DNA from: Brockia lithotrophica
GTDB taxonomy: Bacteria > Bacillota > Bacilli > Thermicanales > DSM-22653
Assembly: GCA_003050565.1 (NCBI GenBank)
Contig: PEBW01000001.1
Span: 1-64,000, forward strand
DNA length: 64,000 nt
Reading direction: 5' to 3'
Both the position numbers and the translations under genes were made by a program. Below the pieces are notes generated by a model. That model saw only the letters and a program-made list of their open reading frames with translations, was not told where the DNA came from and did not search any database. Positions 864 to 24,656 of this stretch are shown in pieces. How positions within the stretch are numbered: the stretch's first letter is position 1; each line of letters starts with the position of its first letter.

Positions 864-1137
864 TTTTAATCACTCCAATAATTTATGGAATATTTTAAAA
901 CAAATCTATTTTTTCTTCATCATATAAAACAATTCAGCGGAAGGAAAGACATTGTTTAACTTCTCTTTTTGAGACAAATTTTCATGCTTTTCAATATGTG
1001 GCTACGACTATCGGAAGAACCATGTTGAGCAGAAGTAGAATGACACCGGCTGCTTTTAGGAAAATCTAGTCTTCACAGTCACCAATCCCCCTCTACGCTA
1101 TACCAAATAAAGCAGTAGTTAATTTCTTCCTTACGAG
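864..1137. other. AT-rich gap with no gene seen
   Basis: I see no open frame with coding character here. The base composition matches the neighbouring AT-rich orphan genes. The right part merges into the IS200/IS605-like end at 1138-1182, so it may be internal debris of that element. Confidence 0.4.
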
Positions 1138-1182
1138 AGGCCGCCCGGAAAGCCCAACCTTTCAAGGGTGGGAGGAGGTCAC
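1138..1182 (+). mobile_element. Solo right end of an IS200/IS605-type (tnpB) element
   Basis: The stretch has the layout of the 3' end of many tnpB elements: GAGGCCGCCCGGAAAGCCC, an imperfect hairpin (CCCAACC, loop TTTCAA, then GGGTGGG less one pair), GAGGAGG, and a terminal TCAC at 1179-1182. No tnpA or tnpB on this strand precedes it, so it is a solo end or a small non-autonomous copy. The TCAC also supplies the TGA stop of the neighbouring minus-strand gene. The call is by motif memory, not by database search. Confidence 0.5.
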
Positions 1183-1922
1183 CACCAGTTTTCCACTTCT
1201 TCTATTATTTTTTCGTCTATCTTTTGGCTCTCACCGATAACACCTACAACTACGAAGCCTTCGAGCATCCTCGGGTACGTCGAGTAGTGAAGCTTCTTCG
1301 GAATGACCGCTACTTCTCTAAACATTCGGAACAGTTCGTTATCTCTTAACGTCACTTTTATTATCCTTGGACGGTCGTAAACGTCAGTTATGGTGAATTC
1401 CTTTCCCTCTATCATGTTGCTGTGCTTGCCAACCGCCAGTATCGCTTTGTACCTGGTCTCCTCCGGCTTTCCCCACGGGTCAAGGTAGCACGCCGTGTCC
1501 ACGCCGTACTTCGATAAAAGTGTTTTAAGGTTTTTCTTTACAATCAATGCCAGTATTCCTTGTGTAACAGCATACATCCATGCAAACATAAATGCGGAAG
1601 CAAAAAGGGAAGGCTTCATAGTATCCCATGTTATCGGCTCATTAAATCCCAAAACGGGAATCGGTAAAGTAGCAGCAAAAACACCTATCCCGCCGAGCAA
1701 CCCCATGACTATAGGGAGATGTTTTATCTTTCTGTGATTATATACGAGATATCCGCCTAGCATACCGAGTAATATAATCAAAGGCATAGCATAGGCATAG
1801 AGAATAAACCTTTCTCTTTCATAAATATATACGTAATATCCGCCTGGTACAACGACTAATACAAACAAAGACATAAGAAAAACAAACAAGATAATAAGTT
1901 CTCTTCTTTCATCCAAAACCAT
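1179..1922 (-). CDS. Four-helix membrane protein, unknown, 3' end set by an IS end
   Basis: This is a 247-residue protein of unrecognised family. Hydrophobic segments lie near residues 9-33, 42-61, 71-90 and 107-130. A soluble C-terminal domain of about 115 residues follows (KYGVDTACYLDPWGKPEETR onward). The ATG at 1922 sits just after AAAGGCGGTGA, a ribosome-site-like stretch that belongs to the truncated tnpB next door. The TGA stop coincides with the TCAC of the IS200/IS605-like end. Both gene ends thus abut transposon sequence, so the natural C-terminus may be lost. AT-richness again points to acquired DNA. Confidence 0.55.
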   Translation of the reverse strand: MVLDERRELIILFVFLMSLFVLVVVPGGYYVYIYERERFILYAYAMPLIILLGMLGGYLVYNHRKIKHLPIVMGLLGGIGVFAATLPIPVLGFNEPITWDTMKPSLFASAFMFAWMYAVTQGILALIVKKNLKTLLSKYGVDTACYLDPWGKPEETRYKAILAVGKHSNMIEGKEFTITDVYDRPRIIKVTLRDNELFRMFREVAVIPKKLHYSTYPRMLEGFVVVGVIGESQKIDEKIIEEVENWW

Positions 1923-1924
1923 TC

Positions 1925-2349
1925 ACCGCCTTTCTGGGATGGTGCCTGTCACTTCCGTCCAGAAGCAGGCGAATCGTGCCGGAACTGTTGTCCAGCCTGA
2001 AACTGTCCCGCCGGTCGTGTTTGCGGCGAAACTTCGGATGGCCGACCTTCCGGCCGGTCTTCCGCCCGCGGAAGAAGTTTTGGAACGCCTTTTCCAGGTC
2101 CCGAAGCGCCTCCTGCGGTGCCCATTTGGACACCTCGTACATCCACGGGAAGTCCGCCTTCTTCAGGCGGTTCAGTTCCCGGTGGAGCTCCGTCGCATTT
2201 GTCGTGCGGCCTTCTTTTTCGTAGATCTCGATCCACCGCGCGAGACCCCAGTTGTAGGCGAAGCGGGCGGCCCCGGCGTGCTTGGCGAGGAGGATGCGTT
2301 GTTCCTTGTTGGGATCGAGCTCGTACCGGTAGGCTCTATGGATCTTCAC
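1925..2349 (-). pseudogene. tnpB: tnpB N-terminal fragment (IS607-type RNA-guided nuclease)
   Basis: From a GTG at 2349 the frame gives about 140 residues (VKIHRAYRYELDPNKEQRIL onward) that closely match residues 1-140 of the full-length TnpB at 23190-24413. Matching ends shortly after DNSSGTIRLLLDG, with a last common trace around 1927. All RuvC catalytic residues and the zinc finger are lost, so the product cannot be a nuclease. The GTG lies inside the 3' end of the upstream tnpA frame (14-base overlap after read-through), the usual IS607 arrangement. Confidence 0.85.
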
Positions 2350-5464: not shown

Positions 5465-5489
5465 GGTGATCCCTCCTTCCATCCTTCTC

Positions 5490-5528
5490 AAAAAAAGAAA
5501 AAGGCCGCCGCCGGAAAAATGCGGCGGC
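5490..5528 (-). terminator. Intrinsic terminator between two surface-protein genes
   Basis: On the minus strand a perfect 8-bp stem (GCCGCCGC with GCGGCGGC, 5504-5511 and 5521-5528) with a nine-base loop is followed by a T-rich run (CCTTTTTCTTTTTTTG). It follows the stop codon at 5537 by eight bases. Confidence 0.8.
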
Positions 5529-5536
5529 AGACGAAG

Positions 5537-7120
5537 TCACTGGATTCCCCCGCTGAACAAAAACCCGTGATAGAGGGCGAAGCTCTTTGGATTTTCCTTC
5601 CACGCGGGATTGTTTTCGTACGGGTTCTTGATCGGGCCGGTGTATTCCTTGATTCCGGTGAAGGGGGGAGAAATCAAAGTCAGAAGGTCACGATTGCTGT
5701 ACCTGTAAACATACTGCACACGACCGTCCCTACGATCCGCCCAAACAACCTCGTCCTCGTACTTTTTCTGTTGTTCGACCAAAGAAGGATCTTTCTCCAG
5801 CTTCTCCTCGAACAATTGCGGTTGAGCTTCCTTCCCCATTACTGAAGCAAACATGCCGGGATACAACATGGCTTCCTCAGAAAGCTCAAACACAAAATCC
5901 CCGCCGTAGTACACCTGAACGAAGGCCTTCGGGTTATCGGCCCTAGGAATCGTGGCTTCCATTACGACCTTGTTGTCAGCCGGGTCGTAGATGCGAAGGA
6001 AGTCTTCGTGCGTTTTCCAAAACTCGAGCTTCAACGGAGTCTTGCGCACGAAATCGTCGTTCAGGTGAATCCACACCGGCTGGCGGTAGCGGATGAGGTC
6101 TTGGAGGTACTGCTCGTTCGCCTTGTTGGCCGGAAGCATGGCTACGGTGTTCTTATCGTATCCCGGATACCCCGTCCAAAATCGGTTCATGATGAAGCTC
6201 TCGATCGGGTTCGAGATGTGCACCCGGAATCCCTCGCGGCGGCCGACGGGACGGAAGGTGAATTCCTTGAGATGGCCCTTCTCGTCGAGCTTGTAGTCGA
6301 GAAGGATTACGCCTTGGAAGCTGGCTTTATCGAAGTTCAAGTAACTAGCATATTGCTCGGAAGGCGAAAGTTGATCCCATAGGAGTTCCATCTCGGGATC
6401 GTAAGCATCCGGTGCTTCGGCCAGCGGACGCCCGTTAGAACGACGGAGAAACTCCGGCGACCAAGCGTTGGGAAGGTCTGCTTTTACCAAAGCATAGCGC
6501 TCCATGAGCGCTTCTTCCACGCGGCTTCCGGGAATCGGACCCTTGTAGTAGTCCGGGCCGAGGTACTCGAAGCGAATGCGGTCGACGTAAGTCTGTGGAT
6601 CGTAGTGGGCAAGAATCATGTTTACGTCAACCTTTTCCCGGAAGAAACGTACTACGTCATGGTTTGGGTCGGGCTCTAATACGTCCGACATCAAGTCTTC
6701 TTTCGAATTCTGAGGCTTAAGACCTTCCTTCAACTTGCGTTCCTGATACACCTTGATTTCCTCCGGCGTGGGAAGATCGCGGGTGGCCCAAATGGACTTG
6801 GAGAAACGCGTGGGAAGCCAGTCTTCAGGGGGACGAAGCTCGTTGGCGAGGCAATCACAGTAAGGTTCCTCGACGCCGGGGGGAAGCGTCTTGTTGAAGC
6901 TTACCTCGACGCCTTCGGGTGTGACGACGGTGACCTTGTCGCCAACTTCTTCCACAACCCCCTGCCGGGGGGGTGTGGTCTTCTTCCATACGACGACACC
7001 GGCTCCGGTGGCCAAAAGAAGCACCGCCGCCACGCCGCCGATGACTGCCTTCTTCCGGTTCTGCCCGAGGTATTCCCTTACACTTTCCAGAAATTCCTTA
7101 AGACGCTCACGAAGTTCCAT
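5537..7120 (-). CDS. Membrane-anchored extracytoplasmic protein, unknown family
   Basis: A 527-residue protein is read from ATG 7120, seven bases after a GAGGAGGG site. A short cytoplasmic helix (residues 1-22, rich in Arg, Glu and Lys) leads into one membrane segment (about 24-43). A long acidic exterior part follows, starting with a small beta-rich piece (QGVVEEVGDKVTVVTPEGVE) and a CDC motif near residue 85. Many aromatic and proline residues and repeated PxxW/Y patterns suggest a compact surface domain. The gene overlaps the end of the upstream gene by 14 bases and ends in a terminator. No family is recognised, and the topology is inferred only from hydrophobicity. With the secreted protein downstream it may form a surface pair. 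Confidence 0.75.
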   Translation of the reverse strand: MELRERLKEFLESVREYLGQNRKKAVIGGVAAVLLLATGAGVVVWKKTTPPRQGVVEEVGDKVTVVTPEGVEVSFNKTLPPGVEEPYCDCLANELRPPEDWLPTRFSKSIWATRDLPTPEEIKVYQERKLKEGLKPQNSKEDLMSDVLEPDPNHDVVRFFREKVDVNMILAHYDPQTYVDRIRFEYLGPDYYKGPIPGSRVEEALMERYALVKADLPNAWSPEFLRRSNGRPLAEAPDAYDPEMELLWDQLSPSEQYASYLNFDKASFQGVILLDYKLDEKGHLKEFTFRPVGRREGFRVHISNPIESFIMNRFWTGYPGYDKNTVAMLPANKANEQYLQDLIRYRQPVWIHLNDDFVRKTPLKLEFWKTHEDFLRIYDPADNKVVMEATIPRADNPKAFVQVYYGGDFVFELSEEAMLYPGMFASVMGKEAQPQLFEEKLEKDPSLVEQQKKYEDEVVWADRRDGRVQYVYRYSNRDLLTLISPPFTGIKEYTGPIKNPYENNPAWKENPKSFALYHGFLFSGGIQ

Positions 7121-7535
7121 GTCTTTTTCCCTCCTCTTTTCCTTCGTCTTCCAGATTTGAGTATATACCAAAACCCTCTCCTTGTAAATAGTCTACTCTC
7201 TCATCGAAAGGCAACCGGTATTCTATTGCTCTCCCTCGAAAGAGCTTAACGAAAAGGACGGGTAACCTAGGAAGGTTGTACACGTTAAGCATGGTGAGCC
7301 AAAATGCAGAGAACCAGGTGAGAGGTGTGTCGGATTCTTTCACTTCTACGAATCCCAGCTCTCTAACTATCCCGTGTACGGTTGCAGTCCTGAATACGAT
7401 CGGGAAACCCGGAACTCTGGACTTTGCCTTTTCTATAGCGTCTTTAAGTGTCTCGATGAACGATTCCCTGTCCATCTTGTACAGAAGGCATACCGGGGAG
7501 TGATGAAGTTCCACTACTCCGTCGTGCAGGGACAT
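7107..7535 (-). CDS. Unknown membrane-associated protein, probably 5'-truncated
   Basis: From ATG 7535 the frame gives 142 residues (MSLHDGVVELHHSPVCLLYK onward). A hydrophobic stretch lies near residues 70-100, holding WFSAFWLTMLNVYNLPRLPV, and the tail is basic and charged. The same frame stays open upstream and encodes a second hydrophobic helix (IIGVLITVFSLCAATYL) around 7570-7620 without a usable start. GC-rich transposase debris begins near 7640. The likeliest reading is a gene whose 5' end was cut by that insertion. Its 3' end overlaps the next gene by 14 bases and includes that gene's ribosome site, so the two were probably translated together. No family is recognised. Confidence 0.45.
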   Translation of the reverse strand: MSLHDGVVELHHSPVCLLYKMDRESFIETLKDAIEKAKSRVPGFPIVFRTATVHGIVRELGFVEVKESDTPLTWFSAFWLTMLNVYNLPRLPVLFVKLFRGRAIEYRLPFDERVDYLQGEGFGIYSNLEDEGKEEGKRHGTS

Positions 7536-10599: not shown

Positions 10600-13056
10600 A
10601 TGGAACACGTTTTCCCTCCAAGACAAACACCCTCCAATCCTCCCTTGGGACTTCACCCGTGGAAGATCGTGGAAGGCGAGGACTACTTCGCCGATCGCGA
10701 GGCGCGCGGCTCGCTCTTCGCCCTTGCCAACGGCTGGTTGGGCGTGCGCGGCCACCTGGAAGAAGAGGAATGCCACGGAACCTTTGCCCGCGAAGTGTAC
10801 GAGATCTACCCGCTTCGCTACCCCGAGGGAGGCTATGGTTACCCCGTCCAAGGGCAGGCGATGGTTCCCCTGCCGGAGGGGACGGGACTCGTCCTCTACC
10901 TCGACGACGAGCGTGTAGACCTCCGCCGTGGAGAAATCCTCGCGCACGTGCGCGAGCTCGACTTTCGAAGCGGTACGCTCGTGCGCACGACGCACTGGCG
11001 TTCCCAAAGCGGCAGGGAAATCGTCTTCCGCACGAAGCGAATCGTCCCCTTTTCGCCTTCCAACGTACTCGTGGTTCGCCTGGAGGTCCTCGCGGTGAAA
11101 AACGTCAAGCGCGTACGCGCTCGCTCTCTCCTCTGCGGGACGGTGCATCCGGAGGCCGACGAACGCGATTTCCGCCTGGGCGCCAACCTCCTGGGGCCAC
11201 TCTACCAACTCATCGAGGAGTTTTTGCACGACGTCGGAGAGGTCCCCGAAGACGTCCAAACTCTCCCTTCCGTATTCGAACTCCTCGAAGAAGAACGGAG
11301 GGCGGCGGGTCAAAGAAGTGAGGGCGGCCTTGTATGGCGCACGCGGCGAAGCGGACACCAGGTCGCCGCCCACGTCGTCCACACCGCGCTCCCCGAGGCC
11401 AAGCGGCGCCTCTCCGGAGAAAGCGGCGGAATCGAGTGGTCCTTCGCCTGGGAAAACATCGAAGAGAACCAAGGGATTCTACGGACTGCGGCGGGGAATT
11501 CCCCGCCCATCCACCTCACGAAGTTTGTCGCCTACGCCGTCGGTTCGGGCGATGCCGAACCCAAAGCCCTCCGCGAGGCGGCGCGCTACGCCGCCTGGAA
11601 TGCCTTGGCGATGCACTCCGAACGCCTCGAAGAAGAGCAGCGCGCCCACCTCGCGACCTTTTGGCAAGACGCCACCGTGCACGTCGAAGGCGACCCGTAC
11701 GTTCAGCAAGGCATCCACTTCTCCCTCTTCCACCTCTACCAGGCCGCCGGTCCGTCTCCCGCTTGGGGGATCGGCGCAAAGGGACTCACCGGACCGGGAT
11801 ACGAGGGCCACGTATTTTGGGACATGGACGTGTACGTCCTCCCTTTCTTCATCTTTACCCACCCGCACATCGCCCGGCGGCTCCTCGAGTACCGCTATCG
11901 CCTCCTGCCCTACGCGCAGGCGCGCGCCCGCGAACTCGGCTACCCGGGGATTCTCTATCCCTGGCGGACGATCGACGGGCCCGAGTGTTCCGCCTTTTTC
12001 CCGGCGGGCACGGCGCAAATTCACATCAACGCCGCCATCGTATATGCGTTCAAAAAGTACCGCGACGTCACCGGCGACGAGACGTTTTTCCGCGCATATG
12101 GACTCGAAATCGCCGCGCTTGCCGCGCGCTTCTACGCTCACCGGGCGAGCGCCATGCCGCGCCGCGGCGGCGCCTACGGGTTCTTCACCGTCACGGGTCC
12201 TGACGAATATACCGCCCTCGTAGACAACAACGCCTACACGAATGCCATGGCCGCCTTTACCCTGGAGTTTGCCGCCCGAGAGGTGCGGCGCCTCGCCGAA
12301 GAAGACCGGGAAGCCTTTCGTCTCTTTGCCGAACGGACGGGAGTCACCCTTTCCGAAGCAGAAACCTGGCTCGCAATAGCCGAAAACATCTACCTCCCTT
12401 GGGACGAGCGCGAACAGATCTTCGCCCAAGACGACTCCTTCCTCGACAAACCCAGACTTTTGGCCCGCGACATCCCCTTCGAGCGCCGGCCCCTCCTCTT
12501 GCACATGCACTACCTGGACATCTACCGCTTCCAGGTGGCGAAGCAGCCGGACGTACTCCTCTGGCTCTACCTTTTCCCGCGCAAATTTTCGCCGGAAGAA
12601 ATCCGGCGGCATCTCGCCTATTACGAACCGATCACCGTCCACGACTCCTCCCTTTCCCCTTCCGTATTCGCCACACTTTGGGCACGAGCGGGAGATGTGG
12701 AGCGTGCCCACGCTTACCTCCGGTACGCCGCCCGGATCGACCTGGAAAACCTGCACGGCGACGCACGGCACGGGGTACACCTTGCCGCCATGGGCGGCGT
12801 ATATCAGGCGTTGCTCGAAGGTTTTGGCGGCATCGTCGCCGATGAGGAAGGGCTCGACGTCTCACCCCGCCTACCCCGGGCGTGGAAGAACCTCGCCTTT
12901 CGCTTCCGCTACCGCGGTCGCCGTTTCGAAGTTCGCGCCACGCACGAACGTACGGACGTCCACCTCCTCGCCGGCGAACCCCTCTCCGCCTCCGTGCACG
13001 GCACCCGCGTCGAACTCGTTCCCGGAAAACCCCAATCGATCCGCCGCAATTGGTAA
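10600..13056 (+). CDS. GH65 disaccharide phosphorylase (maltose/trehalose/kojibiose type)
   Basis: An 818-residue cytoplasmic enzyme of glycoside hydrolase family 65. It would cleave an alpha-linked glucose disaccharide with phosphate, giving glucose and beta-glucose 1-phosphate. The N-terminal beta-sandwich is followed by the (alpha/alpha)6 barrel with GLTGPGYEGHVFWDMDVY and TVTGPDEYT; Glu536 in the latter is the expected general acid. A basic and acidic stretch near residues 205-265 looks longer than in typical members (about 760-790 residues). Substrate cannot be read from sequence alone. Neighbours fit the role: pgmB divergent upstream, a sugar ABC importer downstream on the same strand. 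The ATG follows GAGGTGA by about ten bases. Confidence 0.9.
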   Translation: MEHVFPPRQTPSNPPLGLHPWKIVEGEDYFADREARGSLFALANGWLGVRGHLEEEECHGTFAREVYEIYPLRYPEGGYGYPVQGQAMVPLPEGTGLVLYLDDERVDLRRGEILAHVRELDFRSGTLVRTTHWRSQSGREIVFRTKRIVPFSPSNVLVVRLEVLAVKNVKRVRARSLLCGTVHPEADERDFRLGANLLGPLYQLIEEFLHDVGEVPEDVQTLPSVFELLEEERRAAGQRSEGGLVWRTRRSGHQVAAHVVHTALPEAKRRLSGESGGIEWSFAWENIEENQGILRTAAGNSPPIHLTKFVAYAVGSGDAEPKALREAARYAAWNALAMHSERLEEEQRAHLATFWQDATVHVEGDPYVQQGIHFSLFHLYQAAGPSPAWGIGAKGLTGPGYEGHVFWDMDVYVLPFFIFTHPHIARRLLEYRYRLLPYAQARARELGYPGILYPWRTIDGPECSAFFPAGTAQIHINAAIVYAFKKYRDVTGDETFFRAYGLEIAALAARFYAHRASAMPRRGGAYGFFTVTGPDEYTALVDNNAYTNAMAAFTLEFAAREVRRLAEEDREAFRLFAERTGVTLSEAETWLAIAENIYLPWDEREQIFAQDDSFLDKPRLLARDIPFERRPLLLHMHYLDIYRFQVAKQPDVLLWLYLFPRKFSPEEIRRHLAYYEPITVHDSSLSPSVFATLWARAGDVERAHAYLRYAARIDLENLHGDARHGVHLAAMGGVYQALLEGFGGIVADEEGLDVSPRLPRAWKNLAFRFRYRGRRFEVRATHERTDVHLLAGEPLSASVHGTRVELVPGKPQSIRRNW

Positions 13057-13202
13057 AAATCGACAATGTGCACCCGGAAACTTGACCCTGCGGAGAAAAT
13101 GGGAAACCCTAGAACTCAGAAGGTGGGAGGGGCTGAGGGCCGGCGGAAGGTGAGGTACGGGCTTAAAGAAAAGCGCTTCCATCTTTCCAGGAGGTGGTCG
13201 AT

Positions 13203-14492
13203 GTGCTGTACGGGGGTACAAAAGGCGAACGTAGGGGCGTGCGCAAAGCGTTCCGCGGGAAGTTTGCAGACGGCGGCGGGCGGCCGATGTGGGGCGTTGC
13301 CTTCGCCTTCGTCCTTGCCCTGCTTCTCGCCGTGAGCGGTTGTGCAGGTCAAGCCACGCAGCCGGGAGGAACGACCAAGGAAACCCCAACTCTTACCGTC
13401 ATCGCCGGGTGGTCCGGAGACGAGGAAAAACAGTTCCGCCCCGTCCTCGAAGAAGCGGAAAAGGAACTCGGGATCAAGATCAACTACCAAATCCAACGCT
13501 TGGAAGACCTGCAAAACGTGCTGCCCGCGCAATTCTCCGCGAAAAAGACTCCCGGGGATGTGATCTTCGTCTCCTCGAGCTGGTTCGTAACGTCCAACGC
13601 CCAGCACTTGGAAGATCTCCGGAGCATCTGGACGGAACCGGATAAGTTTCGCCTATCCGCGGTAGAGGCCGACGGGAAAATCGTCGGCGTTCCCTACGCT
13701 CTCTCCGTGAAACCCGGATTTTGGTACCGGAAATCCTTCTTCCAGGCCAACGGACTCGAACCGCCGAAGAGCTGGGACGACTTTCGCAACCTCCTCACCA
13801 AGATGCGGGGTATCCCCGGTGTGAAAAACCCCATCGTCTCCGGCGACAGCGTAGGTTGGCCGCTCTCGGACGTGGTCGAACACTTTCTCATCACGTTCGG
13901 CGGACCCCAACTCCAGCTCGACTTGATCGACAACAAGGTGAAGTGGCAAGATCCGAAGGTCAAAGAGATCTTTGCCGAGCGAATTGTTCCGCTCCTTCAA
14001 GACAAGTCCTTTAGCGCCCCCACCGACTGGACGAGCGCGGTCGATTTGTGGTGGAACGGCGAATACGGCCTCTACTTTATGGGCAACTGGATTACGGGGA
14101 TGGTCAAAGATCCGAACGACCTGGGGGTATTCCCCCTCTCGGGCGACAAGGGAGTCGTAGGCGGTGCGGACTACATCATGGTCCCGACCTACGGCGCCCA
14201 CAAAGACGAGGCCAAAAAGCTCGTCGAGTTTCTCATCAGCAAAAAGGGCATGGAGATCCGGGTAAAACAGGGGGGGAAGCTCTCCTCCCGAACGGATACA
14301 CCCGTGGACATCTACCCTCCGGCCGACCGCGCCGTCGCCGAGGCCATTCAGGGAATGGAAATCCTCCCCGACCTCGACGACACGATCGGCGGCAAGTGGC
14401 AAAACACGTTTTGGGATCAGCTCAAACTCCTCTGGGTGAAGCCGGGAGACCTCGACTCCGTGCTCAAGACCTTGGACGACGCGCGAAAGTGA
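13203..14492 (+). CDS. Sugar ABC transporter substrate-binding lipoprotein
   Basis: This extracytoplasmic binding protein belongs to the maltose/oligosaccharide family (SBP_bac_1). The preferred start is GTG 13203, eight bases after CAGGAGG, giving 429 residues; GTG 13194 overlaps the ribosome site. An unusually long basic N-terminus (about 28 residues) precedes the hydrophobic signal and the lipobox LAVSGC, so the mature protein is a lipoprotein. The mature part starts with a Gly/Thr linker and continues with LTVIAGWSGDEEKQF. The internal GFWYRKSFFQANGLEPPKSW is a family hallmark. It is the first gene of the importer, followed by two permeases, and most likely feeds the GH65 phosphorylase. 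Confidence 0.9.
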   Translation: MLYGGTKGERRGVRKAFRGKFADGGGRPMWGVAFAFVLALLLAVSGCAGQATQPGGTTKETPTLTVIAGWSGDEEKQFRPVLEEAEKELGIKINYQIQRLEDLQNVLPAQFSAKKTPGDVIFVSSSWFVTSNAQHLEDLRSIWTEPDKFRLSAVEADGKIVGVPYALSVKPGFWYRKSFFQANGLEPPKSWDDFRNLLTKMRGIPGVKNPIVSGDSVGWPLSDVVEHFLITFGGPQLQLDLIDNKVKWQDPKVKEIFAERIVPLLQDKSFSAPTDWTSAVDLWWNGEYGLYFMGNWITGMVKDPNDLGVFPLSGDKGVVGGADYIMVPTYGAHKDEAKKLVEFLISKKGMEIRVKQGGKLSSRTDTPVDIYPPADRAVAEAIQGMEILPDLDDTIGGKWQNTFWDQLKLLWVKPGDLDSVLKTLDDARK

Positions 14493-14546: not shown

Positions 14547-15530
14547 GTGAGCGTCGTGATACGCAGGGGGTTCGCACGAAAACCACCCGACGGCTTTAAA
14601 ACGGGAGTGGGGCAGAGGGGCTCCCTTCTGCCCCGTCCCTTTATTCCCAGACTCTCGCCCGAACAGGAGCCCCTCTGGTTCGCGGTTCCCGCCCTTCTCC
14701 TCATCTTCGTAGCTGTCGTGGTTCCCTCTGTATCCACCTTGCTTCTTGCCTTCCAGGGGCCGAACCACGAATTCGTCGGCCTGGCGAACTTTCGAGATGT
14801 CCTACAGGACCCGGAAACTCTCAACCTATCCCGCTTTCCCGGGCACTCTCCACCGTGGGGCGCCCTCGTCCACAACGCTCTCTGGATCCTCATTCACCTT
14901 CCGGCAAGTGTCGGTCTCGGTCTCCTCCTCGCCCTCCTCTTCCAAGACATCCCGGGAAACCAAATCCTACGTGTGTTCATTTACCTCGGAATGATTCTCC
15001 CCATGGTCATCGGCGGCGTGCTCATTCGCTTTCTCTTCGACGAAAACGCTGGCATCGTAAACGGCGCGCTTGAACTCCTCGGACGAAGCGATCTCGTGCG
15101 CACGTGGACGGCGTACCCGGAAACGGCGCTTTTTGCCCTGATCTTGGGCTCCGTGTGGTTGTGGGTGGGATTTCCCCTCGTCCTCTTTTCTTCGGGGCTT
15201 ACGACCATTCCTCGGGAGCTCTACGAAGCGGCGGATATTGACGGTGCGGGGACGTGGGCGAAATTCCGCCACATTACCTGGCCTGGCCTTGCCCCCGTAA
15301 CGAGCGTCGTCGTCGCCATGACCGTACTCTGGGAACTCAAGATTTTCGACATCGTGTACGTAGCGACTCAAGGCGGACCCGGAAACGCGTCCTTGGTCTT
15401 GGCGCTCGAGATGTACTTCGCCGCCTTTCGTGCTCTCGATTACCCCCACGCTTCTGCGCTCGCAACAATTCTCGCGTTGCTCGCGCTTCTCGTGGGAATC
15501 CGCTTCGTACGTACGGCAAAAAACGCGTAA
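14547..15530 (+). CDS. Sugar ABC transporter permease (MalF-type)
   Basis: This 327-residue inner-membrane permease has six predicted helices after a 45-residue N-terminal tail. The EAA loop that docks the ATPase is visible as ELYEAADIDGAGTWAKFRHI followed by TWPGL. GTG 14547 and GTG 14556 are both possible; the second is better spaced from GAGGTGAGG. A partner permease follows 37 bases downstream. No ATPase gene is in the window, so a shared MsmX/UgpC-type ATPase elsewhere is inferred. Its 3' end, from about 15455, reappears in degraded form at 19010-19090. Confidence 0.9.
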   Translation: MSVVIRRGFARKPPDGFKTGVGQRGSLLPRPFIPRLSPEQEPLWFAVPALLLIFVAVVVPSVSTLLLAFQGPNHEFVGLANFRDVLQDPETLNLSRFPGHSPPWGALVHNALWILIHLPASVGLGLLLALLFQDIPGNQILRVFIYLGMILPMVIGGVLIRFLFDENAGIVNGALELLGRSDLVRTWTAYPETALFALILGSVWLWVGFPLVLFSSGLTTIPRELYEAADIDGAGTWAKFRHITWPGLAPVTSVVVAMTVLWELKIFDIVYVATQGGPGNASLVLALEMYFAAFRALDYPHASALATILALLALLVGIRFVRTAKNA

Positions 15531-15567
15531 GAAAAACAGCTGCTCATGAAAAGGAGGCATCCCACAC

Positions 15568-16428
15568 ATGGGAAAGCTTTTTTCCTCGCGGCGAACGGCC
15601 GAATTTCTCCTTTTCGCCCTGCGAACGGCCCTCGCCTGGGGAATCGGCCTCCTGTGGGTGATCCCCTTTCTCGGGGTGTTCATGAGCGCCGTGCGCCCGC
15701 AGGAAGAGCTCCTTCACGGTTGGTGGCGATTCTCCCCCTTCACCTTCACCCTGCAAAATTTCTCCCGCGCGTGGACGCACTCTACGGCGTCCATCGCACA
15801 AGGCCTGTGGAATTCGCTCCTCGTCGCCCTACCGGCAACCCTGCTCTCCGTCTTTCTCGGCGCCCTCGCCGCATACGGATTTCTCCGGGCGAGAACGGGG
15901 ATTGCGACCTGGCTTTTCCTCGGCGTAGTCCTCCTCTTAGCTCTTCCTCAGCAAATGGCGGCAATTCCCCTCTTTCAGGGACTTGCCGCCCTCGACCTGA
16001 TCAACTCGTACGTCGGCCTCATCCTCGTTCACGCCGCCTGGGGCTTACCGTGGATCACGATGTTCCTCCGGAACTTCTTTACAACCGTGCCCGTCGAACT
16101 CGAGGAAGCGGCGCGTATCGACGGTGCCTCGCGCACCTACACCTTTTTTCGCATCCTCCTTCCCGTAAGCCTACCTGCCCTCGCTTCGGCCGCGGCGCTC
16201 CAGTTCAACTGGGTGTGGAACGACTTCTTCCTCGCCCTGATCCTCATCTACAGCCCCGACAAGCTTCTCGTCACCCAGCGGATCCCGCTTCTTCGGGGAC
16301 AATACTACGTGGATTGGGGTCTCCTATCCGCCGCGGCGCTCCTCGCGATGTCCGTACCCATCCTCGTCTTTCTCCTTCTCCAGCGCTACTACGTGCGCGG
16401 ACTCGTAGGCTGGAACGTAGAAAAGTGA
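15568..16428 (+). CDS. Sugar ABC transporter permease (MalG-type)
   Basis: A 286-residue permease with six predicted helices. The EAA motif reads VELEEAARIDGASRTYTFFR with ILLP behind it. The ATG follows AAAAGGAGG by ten bases. With the MalF-type partner it would form the membrane channel for the oligosaccharide bound by the upstream lipoprotein. It is convergent with the PhoX-like gene, with only 56 bases between stops and no clear terminator. Both ends of this gene, but not the middle, occur again near 19092-19206 in a collapsed duplicate whose start codon is AGG instead of ATG. Confidence 0.9.
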   Translation: MGKLFSSRRTAEFLLFALRTALAWGIGLLWVIPFLGVFMSAVRPQEELLHGWWRFSPFTFTLQNFSRAWTHSTASIAQGLWNSLLVALPATLLSVFLGALAAYGFLRARTGIATWLFLGVVLLLALPQQMAAIPLFQGLAALDLINSYVGLILVHAAWGLPWITMFLRNFFTTVPVELEEAARIDGASRTYTFFRILLPVSLPALASAAALQFNWVWNDFFLALILIYSPDKLLVTQRIPLLRGQYYVDWGLLSAAALLAMSVPILVFLLLQRYYVRGLVGWNVEK

Positions 16429-16484
16429 TCCCTTACGTCCGCGTCTTCCCGACGGCGCCCGCGAAAATCTCGTTCGGAGGCTCC

Positions 16485-18608
16485 TTACCCGCCCATCTCG
16501 GGCCTGGATCGCCGATATGCGACGCCGCCGGCGGCGAGGAGCGCCCCGCCTACGACGAGGAGGACTTCCGGAGGCAAGGCACCCGTCCGGGGGAGAGCCC
16601 GCGCGGGTCCGGACGGGGGAGCGGGCGACGGTTCGGAAACCTTGGTTCCCGCAGGTGCGGGAGAATCGATCGACGGAGGCGTATTCGCCCGCGTGTCCGA
16701 AGTCGGCGGAGCGGCGCCTCCTCCGTCGTCAGGAATTGGAGCGGAGGAGCTTGTCTTTTCGGTGTGGCCTTCTCCATTCTCGGAGCGCGCCTCCTCCGAT
16801 TCGCCCGGCTGAGGCTGCGGCGCCCCCCCTTGAGCCGGCGGCACGAACATCGCGAGCAGCTGGCCGCCTTCGACGAGCTCCGGATCGGTGTGTGTGAAGT
16901 GCGCCTGAACGTCGAAGAGGTACCAGCCCTCGCCGAGGATGTCGGAGACGTCGATGATGCCGGACGACTCTTCGTCGAAGGTCAGGAACTTCTCGCCGCC
17001 CGGGGCGAAGCGTCTCGGATCGTGCTTGGCGACTTCTTCCAGCTTGCCGTCGGCGAGCGTGTAACGCCAGATCTTGGCGATATGATCGTTTTTGCCCGGG
17101 TCTTCTTGGATCAAGATTTCGCCGCGGCGGGTGACGGTGAGGTTGTCCATCATTTTCTGCCCTTCGTCGCCCTTAAGGAGCATCTCGATCGTCCCGCCGA
17201 GCTCAGGCTGCGTCACGTCCTTGAAGGTGAGCTTCCACAGCCGGCTCTTGTTGTTCATCGTGGCGGTGGTGACGAAGTAGAAGACGTTCGGGTCAAGCGG
17301 GTCCCACGCGCCGTCTTCCGGCCGCTGGAACTGGGTAACCCCTCCGGCGATGATCTCCTGGGCCAGCTCGGCGCCGGTCTTGTTTCTGGCATCGCCGAAC
17401 GAATACAGCGAGAACGGCTTCGGTCCCTCCCACTGGGTGTCGTCGCTCTCTAGCGGCAAGCCTTCCACCTTGAGCCCGTATAGAGTCCCGTTGTTCAGCC
17501 CGGCTCGTTCGGCCGGATTTCCTTCGGACTGCTTTTCGCCGATATAGACGAAGACCGTCCCGGACCCTTTTCCAGGGGGAGTATCATCCAGCCCGATGAC
17601 GACCGTCTTTTCGCCCGTCTTGGGATGGACGAGGATGTTTTCCCAGCTGGCCTTCCCCAGGGCCGGAAGTTCATAGCTCGTCCCGTCCAGGGCGTGGGCA
17701 AAGGCGCGGCCCTCACGGCCTTTTTCCTCGCCGTTCATGAACAAGCGGTCCGGATAGCCCTTGCCGCTTTTTTCATCATAGAAGGCTCCGATCGGCGGCA
17801 GGTCGGCCGAGCACAGGCGGGACAGTTCGACGCTCTGGACCGGCGCATCGTATTGATTCTTTTCCTTATTCCACAGCACAAATCGCTGAATCAGGTCTTC
17901 TCCGCGTTTGACTTCCAGCGTCGTTTTATCGATGACCCACTTCGAGACGAAGGCGCCCTTCGCCCCGTGGGCGCGGACCGCTCCCGCGGTGCCCGGATTT
18001 TCGAGGTAAATTTCGTGGTTCATAAGGAGCGTAAACGTGCCGTCGCCGTTGTCGTAAGCGCCGAGGCCGTCGGGGATCCCGACCATCCGGTAAGGCTTCC
18101 CGTCCTTCCCGGGGACCGCGTCCCCGACGGTCAAAACCGACTTGATCTCGACGCCGTCCATCGTCGGCACGAGGTACGGCGGCTTCGAGCTGCTCGGCCC
18201 GCGGTTTGGATCATCTTCAACGACGGGGACAAAGACGGGAATCGTATCCGGGGACGTGGCGCCGATGTTCACAACCCCCGGATAGCGGTAGTCTTTGCCG
18301 TCAACGGTCAGCGTGATGCCGTACGTCCCCTCCGGGAGCGTGACCGTCGCCTGACCGCCGGTCACCGCGATCCCTGCATAAACGTCCTCGCCGACGGTCT
18401 TGCCGTCTGCGTCTGTCTTAAAAATCGTCATCGTCGCCGCCGGCACCGGGCGCTGCTCGACGTCGGACACCGCAAACGTCACCGTTTTCCCGGGCGCCTC
18501 CGCCTGCGCCGCCGGGAGGCCGAACGGCGGCACGAGCAGCGTGACGACGAGCGCCAGCACCAAAGCCACCCTCAGCGGTCGCATCTTGCGCATGACTCGG
18601 TATCCCAT
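16485..18608 (-). CDS. Cell-wall-anchored PhoX-like (DUF839) phosphatase
   Basis: A 707-residue exported protein. The signal peptide (about residues 10-36, ending PAAQA) is followed by a small Ig- or CNA-B-like domain (TVTLPEGTYGITLTVDGKDY). A long DUF839/PhoX beta-propeller comes next: MVGIPDGLGAYDNGDGTFTL, RPEDGAWDPLDPNVFYFVTT, DNLTVTRRGEILIQEDPGKN and SSGIIDVSDILGEGW. PhoX enzymes are calcium/iron-dependent alkaline phosphatases of phosphate scavenging. A Ser/Pro-rich spacer leads to LPRTG, a hydrophobic helix and a basic tail, so sortase should link it to the wall. The tail is nearly identical to that of the protein at 19269. A PhoP-box-like array lies about 260 bases upstream. The start follows GGAGGAGGGG. 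Confidence 0.85.
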   Translation of the reverse strand: MGYRVMRKMRPLRVALVLALVVTLLVPPFGLPAAQAEAPGKTVTFAVSDVEQRPVPAATMTIFKTDADGKTVGEDVYAGIAVTGGQATVTLPEGTYGITLTVDGKDYRYPGVVNIGATSPDTIPVFVPVVEDDPNRGPSSSKPPYLVPTMDGVEIKSVLTVGDAVPGKDGKPYRMVGIPDGLGAYDNGDGTFTLLMNHEIYLENPGTAGAVRAHGAKGAFVSKWVIDKTTLEVKRGEDLIQRFVLWNKEKNQYDAPVQSVELSRLCSADLPPIGAFYDEKSGKGYPDRLFMNGEEKGREGRAFAHALDGTSYELPALGKASWENILVHPKTGEKTVVIGLDDTPPGKGSGTVFVYIGEKQSEGNPAERAGLNNGTLYGLKVEGLPLESDDTQWEGPKPFSLYSFGDARNKTGAELAQEIIAGGVTQFQRPEDGAWDPLDPNVFYFVTTATMNNKSRLWKLTFKDVTQPELGGTIEMLLKGDEGQKMMDNLTVTRRGEILIQEDPGKNDHIAKIWRYTLADGKLEEVAKHDPRRFAPGGEKFLTFDEESSGIIDVSDILGEGWYLFDVQAHFTHTDPELVEGGQLLAMFVPPAQGGAPQPQPGESEEARSENGEGHTEKTSSSAPIPDDGGGAAPPTSDTRANTPPSIDSPAPAGTKVSEPSPAPPSGPARALPRTGALPPEVLLVVGGALLAAGGVAYRRSRPEMGG

Positions 18609-18860
18609 TTTCTCCCATCCCCTCCTCCGCGGTTTTCCTGCTGCCCGGCTGCTTCCCCGATTCTCTCATCGCCTCAGCCTGTCCGCGGTCGCAAGCCGCT
18701 CTCGCCTTCCGCACCGTCACCGGACGGCGCCGAACCGCCCGGCGCATGGCGATGCCGCGTCCAATTCCGTTCTCCCTCCTTTACAACGTGCGTGAAATCT
18801 GACGCCATGCCGAACCCCCGAAAAGCACCCTGGGTTCGAGATCGCGTGCATATCCAAGTT

Positions 18861-18899
18861 TACCAGACGTCTTTTAACGGCCCGTAAATGTTTTGTTAA
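18861..18899 (-). promoter_or_regulatory. PhoP-box-like hexamer array upstream of the PhoX-like gene
   Basis: On the minus strand the hexamers TTAACA, TTTACG and TTAAAA occur with exactly five bases between each, followed at the same spacing by a weak CTGGTA. The 11-bp period and the TT(A/T)ACA-like words match the known Bacillus PhoP box. The start codon is about 250 bases further downstream, leaving room for a promoter and leader. An orphan AAAGGAGGG near 18775-18783 lies in that leader. Confidence 0.6.
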
Positions 18900-19009
18900 G
18901 TTTCGATGAAGCTTCGTATCGTGTCTATAAATGACGCTGCATCTGCTCTGCCGGTGGGCGGCCGCTTTCGCATCGGGGCGTCGAAGGCTGCCCGAAGGAT
19001 TCCTTGCAA

Positions 19010-19268
19010 ATCTGCGATCGCAACAATTCTCACGTTGCTCGCGCTTCTCGTGAAAATTCGCTTCGTACGTGCGGCAAAAAACGCGTAAGAAAAAAGTTGC
19101 TCATGAAAAGGAGGCAATCCACACAGGGGAAAGCTTTTTTCTCTCGGCGAACAGCCGAATTTCTCCTTTTCGTGATGCGCACGGACTCGTAGGCTGGAAC
19201 GTAGAAAAGCGATCCCTTACGTCCGCGTCTTCCCGACGGCGTCCGTGAAAATATCGTTCGGAGGCTCC
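19010..19268 (+). pseudogene. Scar of a collapsed duplicate of the permease region
   Basis: About 19010-19091 matches the 3' end of the first permease gene (ending RFVRAAKNA then stop). About 19092-19170 matches the intergenic part and the first codons of the second permease, whose ATG is now AGG. About 19172-19206 matches the last codons of the second permease, and the match continues into the tail of the next LPRTG gene. The roughly 775 bases between are deleted. Sequence is close to the source at 15455-15616 and 16391-16484. No function is expected. Confidence 0.85.
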
Positions 19269-21203
19269 TTACCCGTTCATCTCAAGCCTGGATCGCCGAT
19301 ATGCGACGCCGCCGGCGGCGAGGAGCGTTCCGCCCACGACGAGGAGGACTTCCGGAGGCAAGGCACCCGTCCGGGGGAGAGCCCGCGCAGGTCCGGACGG
19401 GGGAGCGGGCGACGGTTCGGGAGCTTCGGTCGCCCCGGATGCGGGAGCGTTGCCCGACGAAGGCGCATCCCCCGATTCGGCCGAACCCGGCGGAGCGGCA
19501 CCTGCCCCGTCGCCGGGAGTCGGAGCGGGGGAGGTCGCCGTTTCCATGCGTTCGATGCGGCCTTCCACACGGGGGGAGACTGGAGAGTGGGCTTCCAGGT
19601 ATTCGACTAAGGCGTCGTGGTCGACTTCGTAGAGTTCGACAATCCGGCCTTCGTCTTTCGCGCGCTTTAAGACTTCGTACCCGTCGCCGCCGTCGGCGAC
19701 GAAGTTGTTCGTCACGAGGAGGTACGTCGCGCGGTGATCGAGGGGGCGGTACGTCCGCGCCTTTTCGTCCCAAACCTCGACGCGGAGGATGCGCTCCCCT
19801 GCGGGGCGAGCGGGATCGAAGGCGTAGCGCATCCCCGCGACCTGGGGAAACCTTCCGTGCTTGTCCTCCACCTTGGAGACGCCGTTTTCCAGGGCTTCCA
19901 AGATTTCCGCGCCCGTGAGGCGGAGGATCACGAGCATGTTGTTGAACGGCATGACTTCGAGGACCTGGCCTAAGGTGACGTCCCCGGCGGGGATGGACGC
20001 GCGAATGCCGCCGCCGTTGACCAACGCGAGCTGCGTCTCCGGAATCGCCTTGCGGGCCTTTTCCAAGTAGGCGTCGGCGATCAAGTTGCCGAGGTTGGTC
20101 TCCTGCGTGCGCACGCGCTCCCGCGCTCCGTCCAGGTCGACGAGCGTCTTCCCCACTACGCGCCGTTTGATCTCCTCGAGGGGGGCGTCGTACGACTCGA
20201 GGAGCTGTTTGAGTTCCGGATCCGGGGGGACGTCATTGAGGGAAAGGAGTTCTCCTTGGGCCTGGGAGAGCCGGGTCTCCCCTCCGGACTCGAAGGCAAA
20301 CGACAGGTCGAGACGCCCAAGGTATTTCCCCCACTCGCCGGCCTGAGCGACCCACGTCGCACGACCGTCGGGTCGGGCAAGGGCGACGGGCGGATTGAGC
20401 GCGGTGTGCGAGTGGCCCCCGACGATCACGTCGATTCCCGGGACGGCCTGGGCGAGGCGCCGATCCTCGGCGTAGCCGATGTGGGTGACGGCTACGATCA
20501 CGTCGGCTCCGCGCTTCCCGAGCTCCTCCACCATGCGACGCGCCGTCTCCACCTCGTCGCGGAAGGTCACACCGGGGCCGGGGTTCGAAAGAATCGCCGT
20601 CTCCTTGGTCGTGAGGCCGAAGATCCCTACGCGCACTTCTTCCAGATCCCAAACGGCGCCGGGGTAGATCTTCCCGGCGTAGTCCTTCTTCGTCGCCGGG
20701 GTGATGACGGGGATCTCGTTCGCAACCACCTCGGCGAGCTTCGCGTCGGGCTGGACGGAGAGGTTTGCGGAGAAGACCGGGAACGCGAGTGCGCGGACGA
20801 ACGCCGCGAGCACGTCTTGTCCGCGGTCGAACTCGTGGTTTCCGAGGACGAGGAGGTCGTAGCCCATGCGGTTCATGAACTCGGCGTCGGCGAGTCCCCG
20901 GTAGTGCGACGAGTAGAGCGTCCCCGTAAAGACGTCCCCCGCGTCCACGAGAAGGACGCGCTTTCCGGAAGCCTCCGCCTCGCGGCGAATCTCGGCGATC
21001 TTGGTCCCCCGGGCGGGGGCGTTCTCCAGGTGCCCGTGGGTGTCGTTCGTGTGCAGGAGGATGAGATCCGGCGGAGCCTGAGGCGCTTCCGCCTCGGCGC
21101 GAGTAAAGCCCAGACCTCCGAGGGAAACCGAGAAGAGCAGGACGGCGAGGATCACCCTCGCCAAGCCGGACCGAAATCGCGCACGCGAGCGGATTTCGTT
21201 CAT
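19269..21203 (-). CDS. Cell-wall-anchored 5'-nucleotidase (UshA/YfkN type)
   Basis: A 644-residue exported enzyme is read from ATG 21203 (GGAGGT twelve bases upstream). The signal peptide ends near RAEAEA. Metallophosphatase motifs follow in order: LLHTNDTHGHLEN, VDAGDVFTG, LGNHEFDRG, THIGY and GGHSHTAL. The 5'-nucleotidase C-terminal domain is marked by TNLGNLIADAYLEKA and LVNGGGIRASIPAGDVTLGQ. It would strip phosphate from nucleotides outside the cell. A Ser/Pro/Ala linker leads to LPRTG, helix and RRSR tail. A PhoP-box-like array lies about 150 bases upstream. The sorting tail and sequence beyond the stop match the PhoX-like gene, showing a shared origin of the 3' end. Confidence 0.9.
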   Translation of the reverse strand: MNEIRSRARFRSGLARVILAVLLFSVSLGGLGFTRAEAEAPQAPPDLILLHTNDTHGHLENAPARGTKIAEIRREAEASGKRVLLVDAGDVFTGTLYSSHYRGLADAEFMNRMGYDLLVLGNHEFDRGQDVLAAFVRALAFPVFSANLSVQPDAKLAEVVANEIPVITPATKKDYAGKIYPGAVWDLEEVRVGIFGLTTKETAILSNPGPGVTFRDEVETARRMVEELGKRGADVIVAVTHIGYAEDRRLAQAVPGIDVIVGGHSHTALNPPVALARPDGRATWVAQAGEWGKYLGRLDLSFAFESGGETRLSQAQGELLSLNDVPPDPELKQLLESYDAPLEEIKRRVVGKTLVDLDGARERVRTQETNLGNLIADAYLEKARKAIPETQLALVNGGGIRASIPAGDVTLGQVLEVMPFNNMLVILRLTGAEILEALENGVSKVEDKHGRFPQVAGMRYAFDPARPAGERILRVEVWDEKARTYRPLDHRATYLLVTNNFVADGGDGYEVLKRAKDEGRIVELYEVDHDALVEYLEAHSPVSPRVEGRIERMETATSPAPTPGDGAGAAPPGSAESGDAPSSGNAPASGATEAPEPSPAPPSGPARALPRTGALPPEVLLVVGGTLLAAGGVAYRRSRLEMNG

Positions 21204-21350
21204 TTGCTTATGCTTACCTCCTCGTCTTCCCGTGCACGGGAAGCGTGCTTCTCTTAGCCGATACCCGATCCACGGGCGATCCACGGGTCTCTCGGTAACC
21301 CGGAAAAAGACGCGAGATCGTCTCTCTCTCGTGCCATTCTAGTTCACGAG

Positions 21351-21389
21351 GATGAATTTCCGGTTAACTTTGCGTAAAGATTCTGTTAG
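21351..21389 (-). promoter_or_regulatory. PhoP-box-like hexamer array upstream of the 5'-nucleotidase gene
   Basis: On the minus strand CTAACA, TTTACG, TTAACC and TTCATC follow each other with exactly five bases between each. The same 11-bp period and the same TTTACG word occur upstream of the PhoX-like gene at 18861-18899. This supports joint control by PhoP under phosphate limitation; no phoPR genes are in the window. Confidence 0.65.
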
Positions 21390-23057: not shown

Positions 23058-23190
23058 ATATCCCAAGAGAGGGATACCGTCCGGTTGCTTCCTGCTTCAT
23101 CGGCGGGGTGCTCGTAGACCGGATTTCCGTTCCGCCGCAGAGCCCGTCTCCACAGGCTTCTCTTCCCGCGGAACTCGCGGTAGGGCAGCC
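23050..23190 (-). ncRNA. Probable omega-RNA (reRNA) scaffold of the IS607-type element
   Basis: Downstream of tnpB the minus strand reads GAAGCCTGTGGAGACGGGCT, CTGCGGCGGAACGG, ACGAGCACCCCGCCGATGAA and CGGACGGTATCCC. This is the conserved, structured block found after many IS607 tnpB genes. In such elements the transcript of this end binds TnpB, and the guide is the flanking DNA just beyond the right end. Here that flank is the rph promoter and leader. The boundaries are approximate. Confidence 0.6.
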
Positions 23191-24413
23191 TATGTGCCGA
23201 CTGCCAGGGCAAATTTGAGCAGATTCTTCGCCGCGTTCTCGTCTCGGTCGTGGTGTGCACCGCAAACGGGACACGTCCACGCCCGGACGGAAAGCGGAAG
23301 TTCGGGAAGAACATGCCCGCAGGAAGAGCACGTCTTCGACGTCGGCTCGTAGCGGTTCACCTTCGCAAGCCTCACTCCCCGAAGCTTGGCTTTCGCTTCG
23401 AGGAGCGCCCGGAAGGTGCCCCACCCGACGTCGGCGATGTGCCGCGCGAGGCGGTCGTTCTTCAGCATCCCGGCGATGTTCAGATCCTCGATCGCGATCA
23501 CCGGATGCGTCCGGACGAGTTCGGTCGTGAGCTTGTGGAGGAAGTCCAGCCGGATGTTTCGAATCCGGCGATGAAGTCTGGCAATCTCGAGACGCGCCTT
23601 TTCGTAGTTCTTCGTCCGCATTTTGAGCTTCCCGTGCTCGTCTCTTATGCCTCGACGGGAAAGTTTTCGCTGAAGTCTTTTCAGACGTTTGAGCGCGCGC
23701 CGAAGCGGTCTCGGAGCATCGGTCTTTCGGATTGCCCCCGTTTCATCCGCCAGCGTCATGAAGCTTTTCAGGCCGGCGTCGATCCCTGCAGCCGGCCCCT
23801 TCGGCGGAGGGGGACCTAAAATCTCTTCTTCCACCGTGAGGCTCACGAACCACCGATCGGCCTCGCGGCTCACGGTGGCGTGAAGGATGCGCCCCTGCGG
23901 AAGATACGTGCGCACGGCTCCGCTCTTCTTCCGGCGGACGGGCTTTTCTTTGAGGCGGACGGCGCCGATCCGGGGCAACACGATGTGCCGCGCCTTTCCG
24001 GGATGGCGTAGGTCTAGTCCGTCTACGAGGAGCCGGATCGTTCCGGAACTGTTGTCCAGCCGGAAGCGGTCCCGGCCATCTTTCTTTCGCCGCGGCTTGG
24101 GGTAGCCGACCTTCCGGCCGGTCTTCCGCCCGCGGAAAAAGTTCTTGAACGCCTTTTCCAGATCCCGCAGCGCCTCCTGCGGCGCCCACTTGGACACTTC
24201 GTACATCCACGGGAAGTCCGTCTTCTTGCGGCGGTTCAGTTCCCGGTGGAGTTCGACGGCGTTTGTCGTGCGGCCTTCTTTTTCGTAAATCTCCTTCCAC
24301 CGCGCGAGGCCCCAGTTGTAGGAGAAGCGGGCGGCCCCGGCGTGCTTGGCGAGGAGGATGCGTTGTTCCTTGTTGGGGTCGAGCTCGTACCGGTAGGCTC
24401 TATGGATCTTCAC
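23190..24413 (-). CDS. tnpB: TnpB RNA-guided nuclease, full length
   Basis: A 407-residue protein from GTG 24413 (VKIHRAYRYELDPNKEQRIL). RuvC-type catalytic residues are all present: Asp212 in AGIDAGLKS, Glu309 in VIAIEDLNI and Asp391 in HDRDENAAKN. The four zinc-finger cysteines (362, 365, 381, 384) flank GHVLPELPLSVRAW. TnpB proteins cut DNA opposite a guide carried by the element's own right-end RNA and help the element persist after excision. The gene is preceded by a remnant of tnpA fused in frame from 24497, so a longer fusion product starting MKLSQW is possible. The protein looks intact and could be active. Confidence 0.9.
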   Translation of the reverse strand: MKIHRAYRYELDPNKEQRILLAKHAGAARFSYNWGLARWKEIYEKEGRTTNAVELHRELNRRKKTDFPWMYEVSKWAPQEALRDLEKAFKNFFRGRKTGRKVGYPKPRRKKDGRDRFRLDNSSGTIRLLVDGLDLRHPGKARHIVLPRIGAVRLKEKPVRRKKSGAVRTYLPQGRILHATVSREADRWFVSLTVEEEILGPPPPKGPAAGIDAGLKSFMTLADETGAIRKTDAPRPLRRALKRLKRLQRKLSRRGIRDEHGKLKMRTKNYEKARLEIARLHRRIRNIRLDFLHKLTTELVRTHPVIAIEDLNIAGMLKNDRLARHIADVGWGTFRALLEAKAKLRGVRLAKVNRYEPTSKTCSSCGHVLPELPLSVRAWTCPVCGAHHDRDENAAKNLLKFALAVGT

Positions 24414-24656
24414 GCCCGAGCACCTCCGACGCCGAACCAAGCACCACGCCGTCTTGTAGGTGATGCCGCGCTTTTTTGCCCATTCGCTGAGTTTCATGAG
24501 TATATTTTACCCTAGAAAGAGACGAAGTTAAATTATATTTTCGGCTGCTGACAACCCTAACCTCCGCCGGCTTCCGCTTCCCCTCCTGACGGGCAACCGC
24601 CGGCGCGCAAAGTCGCATCGCCTCTGCCCAAAGCTCGGATCGGGTACCCGAGACGC

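Follow-up and report, generated by a model that had tools for sequence, protein, structure and literature searches.

The stretch analysed here (the window) comprises 64,000 nucleotides of Brockia lithotrophica, positions 1 to 64,000 of contig PEBW01000001.1 in assembly GCA_003050565.1. Within it, genes for two ABC sugar-type permeases are followed, on the opposite strand, by genes for two exported phosphatases: a PhoX-type phosphatase and a UshA-type 5′-nucleotidase (Table 1). Each phosphatase has LPRTG near its end, followed by a hydrophobic stretch and then RRSR; the end of PhoX reads LPRTG-ALPPEVLLVVGGALLAAGGVAY-RRSRPEMGG, with the LPXTG motif, the hydrophobic segment and the basic C-terminus all present. 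We consider it very likely that a foreign PhoX gene was inserted at this locus with duplication of a target of ~1.3 kb, thereby taking over the wall-anchor tail of the nucleotidase.

Part of this region is present twice. A repeat search within the window gave the direct pairs 15453-15536/19011-19094 (93%), 15533-15584/19090-19141 (90%), 15570-15628/19126-19184 (81%) and 16395-16694/19179-19478 (88%), all of them colinear; overall, 15453-15628 matches 19011-19184 at ~91%. Searched against the whole genome, the repeats have E-values of 5e-122 and 1e-60, which excludes chance as their source. Pairwise counts gave 15/167 mismatches (91% identity) for the permease flank (end of permease 1, spacer and start of permease 2), 1/30 for the 3′ end of permease 2, 3/56 for the spacer, 8/151 for the anchor (PhoX against nucleotidase) and 37/133 (72% identity) for the linker that precedes it. 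The second copy lacks ~0.77 kb of permease 2, and the start codon of that gene, ATG at 15568 (ACACATGGG), reads AGG there (ACACAGGGG). A first-pass annotation of this sequence had described a colinear recurrence, a second permease copy with its middle lost and its ATG changed to AGG, and about 8 differences in 155 bases of the tail, all of which the self-comparison it had asked for bears out. The repeat extent that it gave is correct as far as it goes, but homology continues through the fast-diverging linker, bringing the copied part of the nucleotidase to ~290 bp (16485-~16773 against 19269-~19568).

Table 1. Features of the locus, with coordinates in the window
Feature	Position	Strand	Basis
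Permease 1 (ABC sugar-type); last ~78 bp form the left part of the duplicated target	14547..15530	+	PF00528, 4.5e-17; repeat
Permease 2 (ABC sugar-type), intact in-situ copy	15568..16428	+	PF00528, 3.7e-17; 3′ 494 bp 91% identical to sister species
First copy of the target: 3′ end of permease 1, permease 2, the spacer and the copied tail of the nucleotidase	15453..16773	+	repeats, junction comparison
PhoX-type phosphatase, 707 residues: signal peptide, PhoX body, probable grafted tail	16485..18608	-	PF05787, 33.2 bits (cut-off 24)
Probable grafted anchor of PhoX: EPSPAPPSGPARALPRTG, hydrophobic segment, RRSR tail	16485..16635	-	8/151 differences to nucleotidase anchor; TIGR01167 LPXTG_anchor, 17.1 bits (cut-off 15.9)
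Probable grafted Pro/Ser/Ala-rich linker of PhoX, fast-diverged	16636..16773	-	alignment; 72% to nucleotidase linker
Left junction between the foreign PhoX DNA and the tail derived from the nucleotidase	16773..16779		GGCGAATCnGAGGAGGCGCnCTnCGAG as in H. schlegelii, followed by AAGGCC of the nucleotidase type
Foreign insert: PhoX body and ~400 bp upstream region	~16779..19010		91.7% to H. schlegelii MA 48
Three-part PhoP-box-like repeat preceding PhoX, TTAACA-N5-TTTACG-N5-TTAA	18874..18899	-	0 mismatches
Right junction, from foreign DNA into the copy of permease 1	19010..19011		blastn end and repeat start; no clear microhomology
Second copy of the target (permease scar): end of permease 1, start of permease 2 with ATG changed to AGG, end of permease 2 after a loss of ~0.77 kb, and the spacer	19011..19268	+	repeats
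UshA-type 5′-nucleotidase with LPRTG tail, 671 residues; resident, probable tail donor	19269..21284	-	PF02872, 6.8e-45; PF00149, 1e-10; 86% amino acid identity to sister orthologue, also LPRTG-ended
Native linker and LPRTG anchor of the nucleotidase, probable graft source	19269..19568	-	sequence comparison
PhoP-box-like repeat upstream of nucleotidase	21364..21389	-	1 mismatch
Sortase, 245 residues	8743..9480	-	PF04203, 75.5 bits; TIGR01076, 58.7 bits (cut-off 39.35); TLVTC and GHATA readable

The sequence between the two target copies is foreign. By blastn, positions 16798-19010 match 5212-7445 of the locus (L038) of Hydrogenibacillus schlegelii MA 48. The PhoX protein, whose PF05787 match lies above the curated cut-off and spans only profile positions 230-470 of 515, is 92% identical in amino acids to its homologue in H. 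schlegelii and 90% to that in Candidatus Carbobacillus altaicus AL32, the identity being confined to residues 1-605 and 1-596, respectively. The housekeeping RNase PH is only 63% and 62% identical across the same two comparisons, which argues that PhoX moved horizontally: its similarity is far above the housekeeping level, and it is absent from the sister species. Its synonymous divergence (dS) from H. schlegelii is 0.088, against 0.48 for the nucleotidase or RNase PH between this genome and its sister species. The first-pass annotation had proposed a plain segmental duplication and had missed that the ~2.2 kb between the copies was horizontally acquired and is close to Hydrogenibacillus.

Both ends of the foreign block can be placed. 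On the right, foreign similarity ends exactly at 19010|19011; on the left, it comes within ~7 bp of the nucleotidase tail, which begins at ~16773, as similarity to H. schlegelii extends to ~16779 when its sequence 3′ of the nucleotidase domain is used (GGCGAATCnGAGGAGGCGCnCTnCGAG, 24/27). Since foreign and repeat ends coincide, the block lies precisely between the two target copies, and the insert is thus flanked by direct target copies whose ends abut it. In the H. schlegelii protein (L038 3324-7046), a second, nucleotidase domain separates the PhoX body from the C-terminal domain and has GGCGAATCC at each of its two edges. The present genome reads PGES-EEA straight through, which is the state without the inserted domain; the donor therefore lacked the domain, or the domain was lost cleanly, and the present-day H. 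schlegelii PhoX-nucleotidase fusion is not needed as the donor. With the nucleotidase domain gained in one lineage and the tail in the other, the PGES hinge was used for two separate domain gains. A transposon origin was also considered and rejected, as 16779-19010 contains no transposase open reading frame, the repeat search gave no inverted-repeat pair at the insert ends, the duplicated target is ~1.3 kb long, and the TnpB gene at 23190-24497 lies at a distance of 4 kb.

The direction of tail transfer follows from the relatives. In the sister species (G001; locus L011 on contig G001:C3), the nucleotidase lies between the 3′ end of permease 2 and HAM1/RNase PH-like genes and has its own LPRTG tail; the first-pass annotation had advised a search for a related nucleotidase without this tail, and the sister orthologue has one instead. 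PhoX was not found in the sister genome, neither at the nucleotidase locus nor elsewhere. In H. schlegelii and Ca. Carbobacillus altaicus, PhoX finishes with another C-terminal domain and has no LPXTG; altogether, 7 homologues in 6 other genomes lack the motif, namely these two and 5 reading frames in 4 more distant genomes. One of the distant homologues, from a Verrucomicrobia metagenome bin (L075), ends in VPEPSTWALIGIGAFFVIWQIRRKQNA, a PEP-CTERM-like tail. A wider sample of the phylum gave only 3 further PhoX matches, in 2 genomes, none with an LPXTG tail. Because the sister nucleotidase is already tailed where PhoX is absent, and because PhoX homologues are tail-less and the H. schlegelii and Ca. 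Carbobacillus altaicus genomes have no detected sortase, the sequence comparisons identify the nucleotidase as tail donor and PhoX as recipient. This reverses the direction given in the first-pass annotation, which had made the gene at 16485-18608 the donor; its broader idea stands, namely that one segmental copy took a sorting-signal module from one exported phosphatase to another, unrelated one, with a collapsed permease remaining as a scar.

A one-step insertion-duplication would account for this arrangement. The ancestral locus would have consisted of permease 1 and permease 2, convergent with a 5′-nucleotidase bearing the sortase tail. A linear foreign fragment of ~2.2 kb, comprising PhoX, its upstream region and a PhoP box, would have entered the chromosome from a Hydrogenibacillus-like thermophile, its promoter-side end joining the 3′ end of permease 1 and its coding-side end joining, in frame, the last ~100 codons of the nucleotidase. 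As these staggered joining points overlap by ~1.3 kb, that stretch would have been duplicated and would now flank the insert on both sides. The nucleotidase would have been left whole, while PhoX would have lost its C-terminal domain and gained a linker, LPRTG, a membrane segment and a basic tail; the second copy of permease 2 would have lost ~0.77 kb later. The dS between the two anchors (0.093), the divergence between permease flank and scar (9%) and the PhoX dS from H. schlegelii (0.088) agree and therefore fit one date. ComEC and DprA are encoded in this genome and Ku was not found in it, which would favour DNA uptake and RecA-linked or microhomology joining as the route of integration; Ku-dependent end joining was rejected as no Ku was found. 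It is conceivable, if rather doubtful, that integration with overlapping ends next to the gene of a sortase substrate serves generally to give imported secreted enzymes a resident tail while the donor stays intact, the new linker then evolving faster than neutral under selection for display.

The same final map would arise in two steps, if a tandem duplication of the target came first, with a truncated nucleotidase tail at its junction, and the PhoX DNA was inserted there later. Small tandem duplications are common; this course, however, requires an insertion exactly at the new junction, both foreign ends lying no more than a few bases from the repeat ends, and the agreeing divergence levels also speak against it, making it improbable.

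The PhoX N-terminus has a basic start, a hydrophobic run and an AQA site, as judged by eye. The sortase in the window is the only PF04203 match in the genome and lies above the cut-off; the sister species also has one, and a profile search detected none in genomes G002-G005, among which are Ca. Carbobacillus altaicus (G003) and H. schlegelii (G004). The nucleotidase tail is absent from the TIGR01167 matches despite a motif identical to that of PhoX, and a profile search with PF00746 was too weak to pick up either LPXTG tail of the window. We predict PhoX to be a sortase substrate that leaves the cell by way of its signal peptide and is attached by the single sortase to the wall, where it would stand beside the nucleotidase under shared phosphate-starvation control.

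This shared control is suggested by PhoP-box-like three-part repeats, which precede PhoX by 266 bp and the nucleotidase by 80 bp. We take their layout to be that of the PhoP box of Bacillus (TT(A/T)ACA-type repeats with 11-bp spacing), a literature search on this point having given nothing. The pattern occurs only twice in the window, where 0.02 occurrences are expected, an expectation that overstates the case, as the pattern was picked after both upstream sequences had been seen; as a fairer test, a relaxed pattern gave 18 matches genome-wide against 3 in reversed controls. The repeat is also found upstream of PhoX in H. schlegelii and Ca. Carbobacillus altaicus, so the one at PhoX arrived with the insert, and a weaker counterpart (3 mismatches) precedes the nucleotidase orthologue of the sister species. 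Together, PhoX and the nucleotidase are predicted to form two wall-anchored phosphatases made under phosphate shortage. A further such repeat (G000:C2:345645-345670, on contig C2 of this genome) lies ~145 bp upstream of another nucleotidase gene (G000:C2:343975-345501), which suggests a wider phosphate regulon.

Several observations weigh against the proposed insertion-duplication, the linker among them. Identity between the PhoX linker and its presumed source is 72%, against 91-95% for the flanks (Fisher 2.5e-5); the linker dS is 0.32, against 0.09 for the anchor, and the non-synonymous divergence (dN) of the linker, at 0.40, is also high. Copying in one event would give such a pattern only if the linker changed faster or its source was diverged. 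With the sister species as comparison, 44 derived sites fall in PhoX and 8 in the nucleotidase, counts that come from few sites in a partly uncertain alignment. The pattern may reflect rapid change of the new linker, a diverged source, or resident sequence that overwrote the anchor or the whole copied block. In addition, no intermediate state was seen, and a search of PDB sequences with PhoX matched no solved structure. It is also very probable that the genome was assembled from a metagenome, at a site shared with carriers of tail-less PhoX, so that read support at the junctions matters.

The linker would be explained if the fusion had formed in an unsampled close relative and had come in by homologous recombination, with the resident sequence overwriting anchor and spacer and leaving an old-looking linker between. 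The sharp fall from 95% identity in the anchor to 72% in the linker, and the dS contrast of 0.09 with 0.32, speak for such a history. The age implied by the linker nevertheless fits poorly with the permease flank (91%) and with the PhoX dS of 0.088 from H. schlegelii, both of which look young, and we regard this course as unlikely. Less probable still is a metagenome chimera, in which a co-assembled PhoX of another species was joined into the contig. The window very probably belongs to bin AL31 of a coal-fire community whose other two dominant members are AL32 and an H. schlegelii strain (PMC5928048), so that Carbobacillus and Hydrogenibacillus were present in the same sample; if so, donor and recipient lineages also share a habitat. 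Yet the fusion is in frame, PhoX differs by 8% from that of H. schlegelii MA 48 and has private indels, the two copies of the flank show 5-9% divergence, a difference not created by errors of assembly, and coverages of 435-fold and 102-fold are reported for the two bins (PMC5928048). The least tenable course, in which PhoX beside permease 2 was wall-anchored from the start and the nucleotidase received the duplicated anchor, has in its favour that the PhoX-side copy holds the intact permease 2 while the scar adjoins the nucleotidase, but is already refuted by the tailed sister nucleotidase, barring an independent tail gain there, and also conflicts with the tail-less homologues and foreign origin of PhoX and with a nucleotidase linker that is the nearer of the two to that of the sister species.

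The wider neighbourhood contains genes for a GH65 enzyme (10600-13056) and a solute-binding protein (13194-14492). In the sister species, the ABC operon and the GH65 gene have collapsed through large deletions (L011 371-1605). An RHS/YD-repeat gene cluster occupies the same boundary between permease 2 and nucleotidase there (L011 1606-5222), and the last nucleotidase residues are altered; the same convergent junction has thus taken up foreign DNA in both species. A stretch of the window (995-1927) is 71% similar to L011 1723-2597, its counterpart gene lying inside the RHS cluster. A TnpB-family protein is encoded 4 kb from the insert (23190-24497, reverse strand; NF040570, 1.1e-97); its additional N-terminal stretch presumably resembles the start of an IS607-type recombinase.

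The gain of a sorting signal is usually inferred from domain tables. At this locus, donor, recipient, tail-less relatives, a tailed sister nucleotidase and both junctions can be compared, and the permease scar serves as a rough neutral clock. The steps from a secreted to a predicted wall-anchored enzyme are still readable in the DNA, providing a concrete model of how an imported secreted enzyme may become wall-anchored, with the gain tied to the presence of a sortase and to phosphate control.

The literature searched held no description of a PhoX-LPRTG fusion, although its components have known parallels. The insertion-duplication or homology-facilitated illegitimate recombination of transforming DNA has been described (references 42-44 in PMC3784515; PMC3240628). 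As here, foreign linear DNA joins with at least one non-homologous end and can leave duplications or deletions; unlike there, no homologous arm survives to show that one end was homologous, and the result is a new in-frame fusion gene. Merodiploids arising by transformation in Streptococcus pneumoniae similarly involve incoming DNA that bridges two sites, giving a tandem duplication in which the disrupted gene keeps an intact copy, but those span 100-900 kb and are driven by repeats, whereas this duplication is ~1.3 kb long with no repeat at its outer joining points (PMC3784515). The resident nucleotidase shares with LPXTG-anchored 5′-nucleotidases (NCBIfam NF040549 Nt5e and NF047875) a calcineurin-like phosphoesterase, a 5′-nucleotidase C domain and an LPXTG tail in the same order, yet its score (219 vs 1050 bits) is far under the cut-offs, placing it outside these named subfamilies. 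The PhoX of H. schlegelii and Ca. Carbobacillus altaicus has the same body (90-92% identical) and upstream repeat and differs in its C-terminal domain, the nucleotidase domain of H. schlegelii sitting at nearly the same hinge. The L075 homologue likewise has a C-terminal sorting-type tail, but of the PEP-CTERM type, on a protein only 43% identical, and of unrelated origin. The fusion is of a known kind, in which horizontal transfer and insertion-duplication give rise to a gene fusion; both the integration process and LPXTG tails are well known, making this locus a good example and not a new system.

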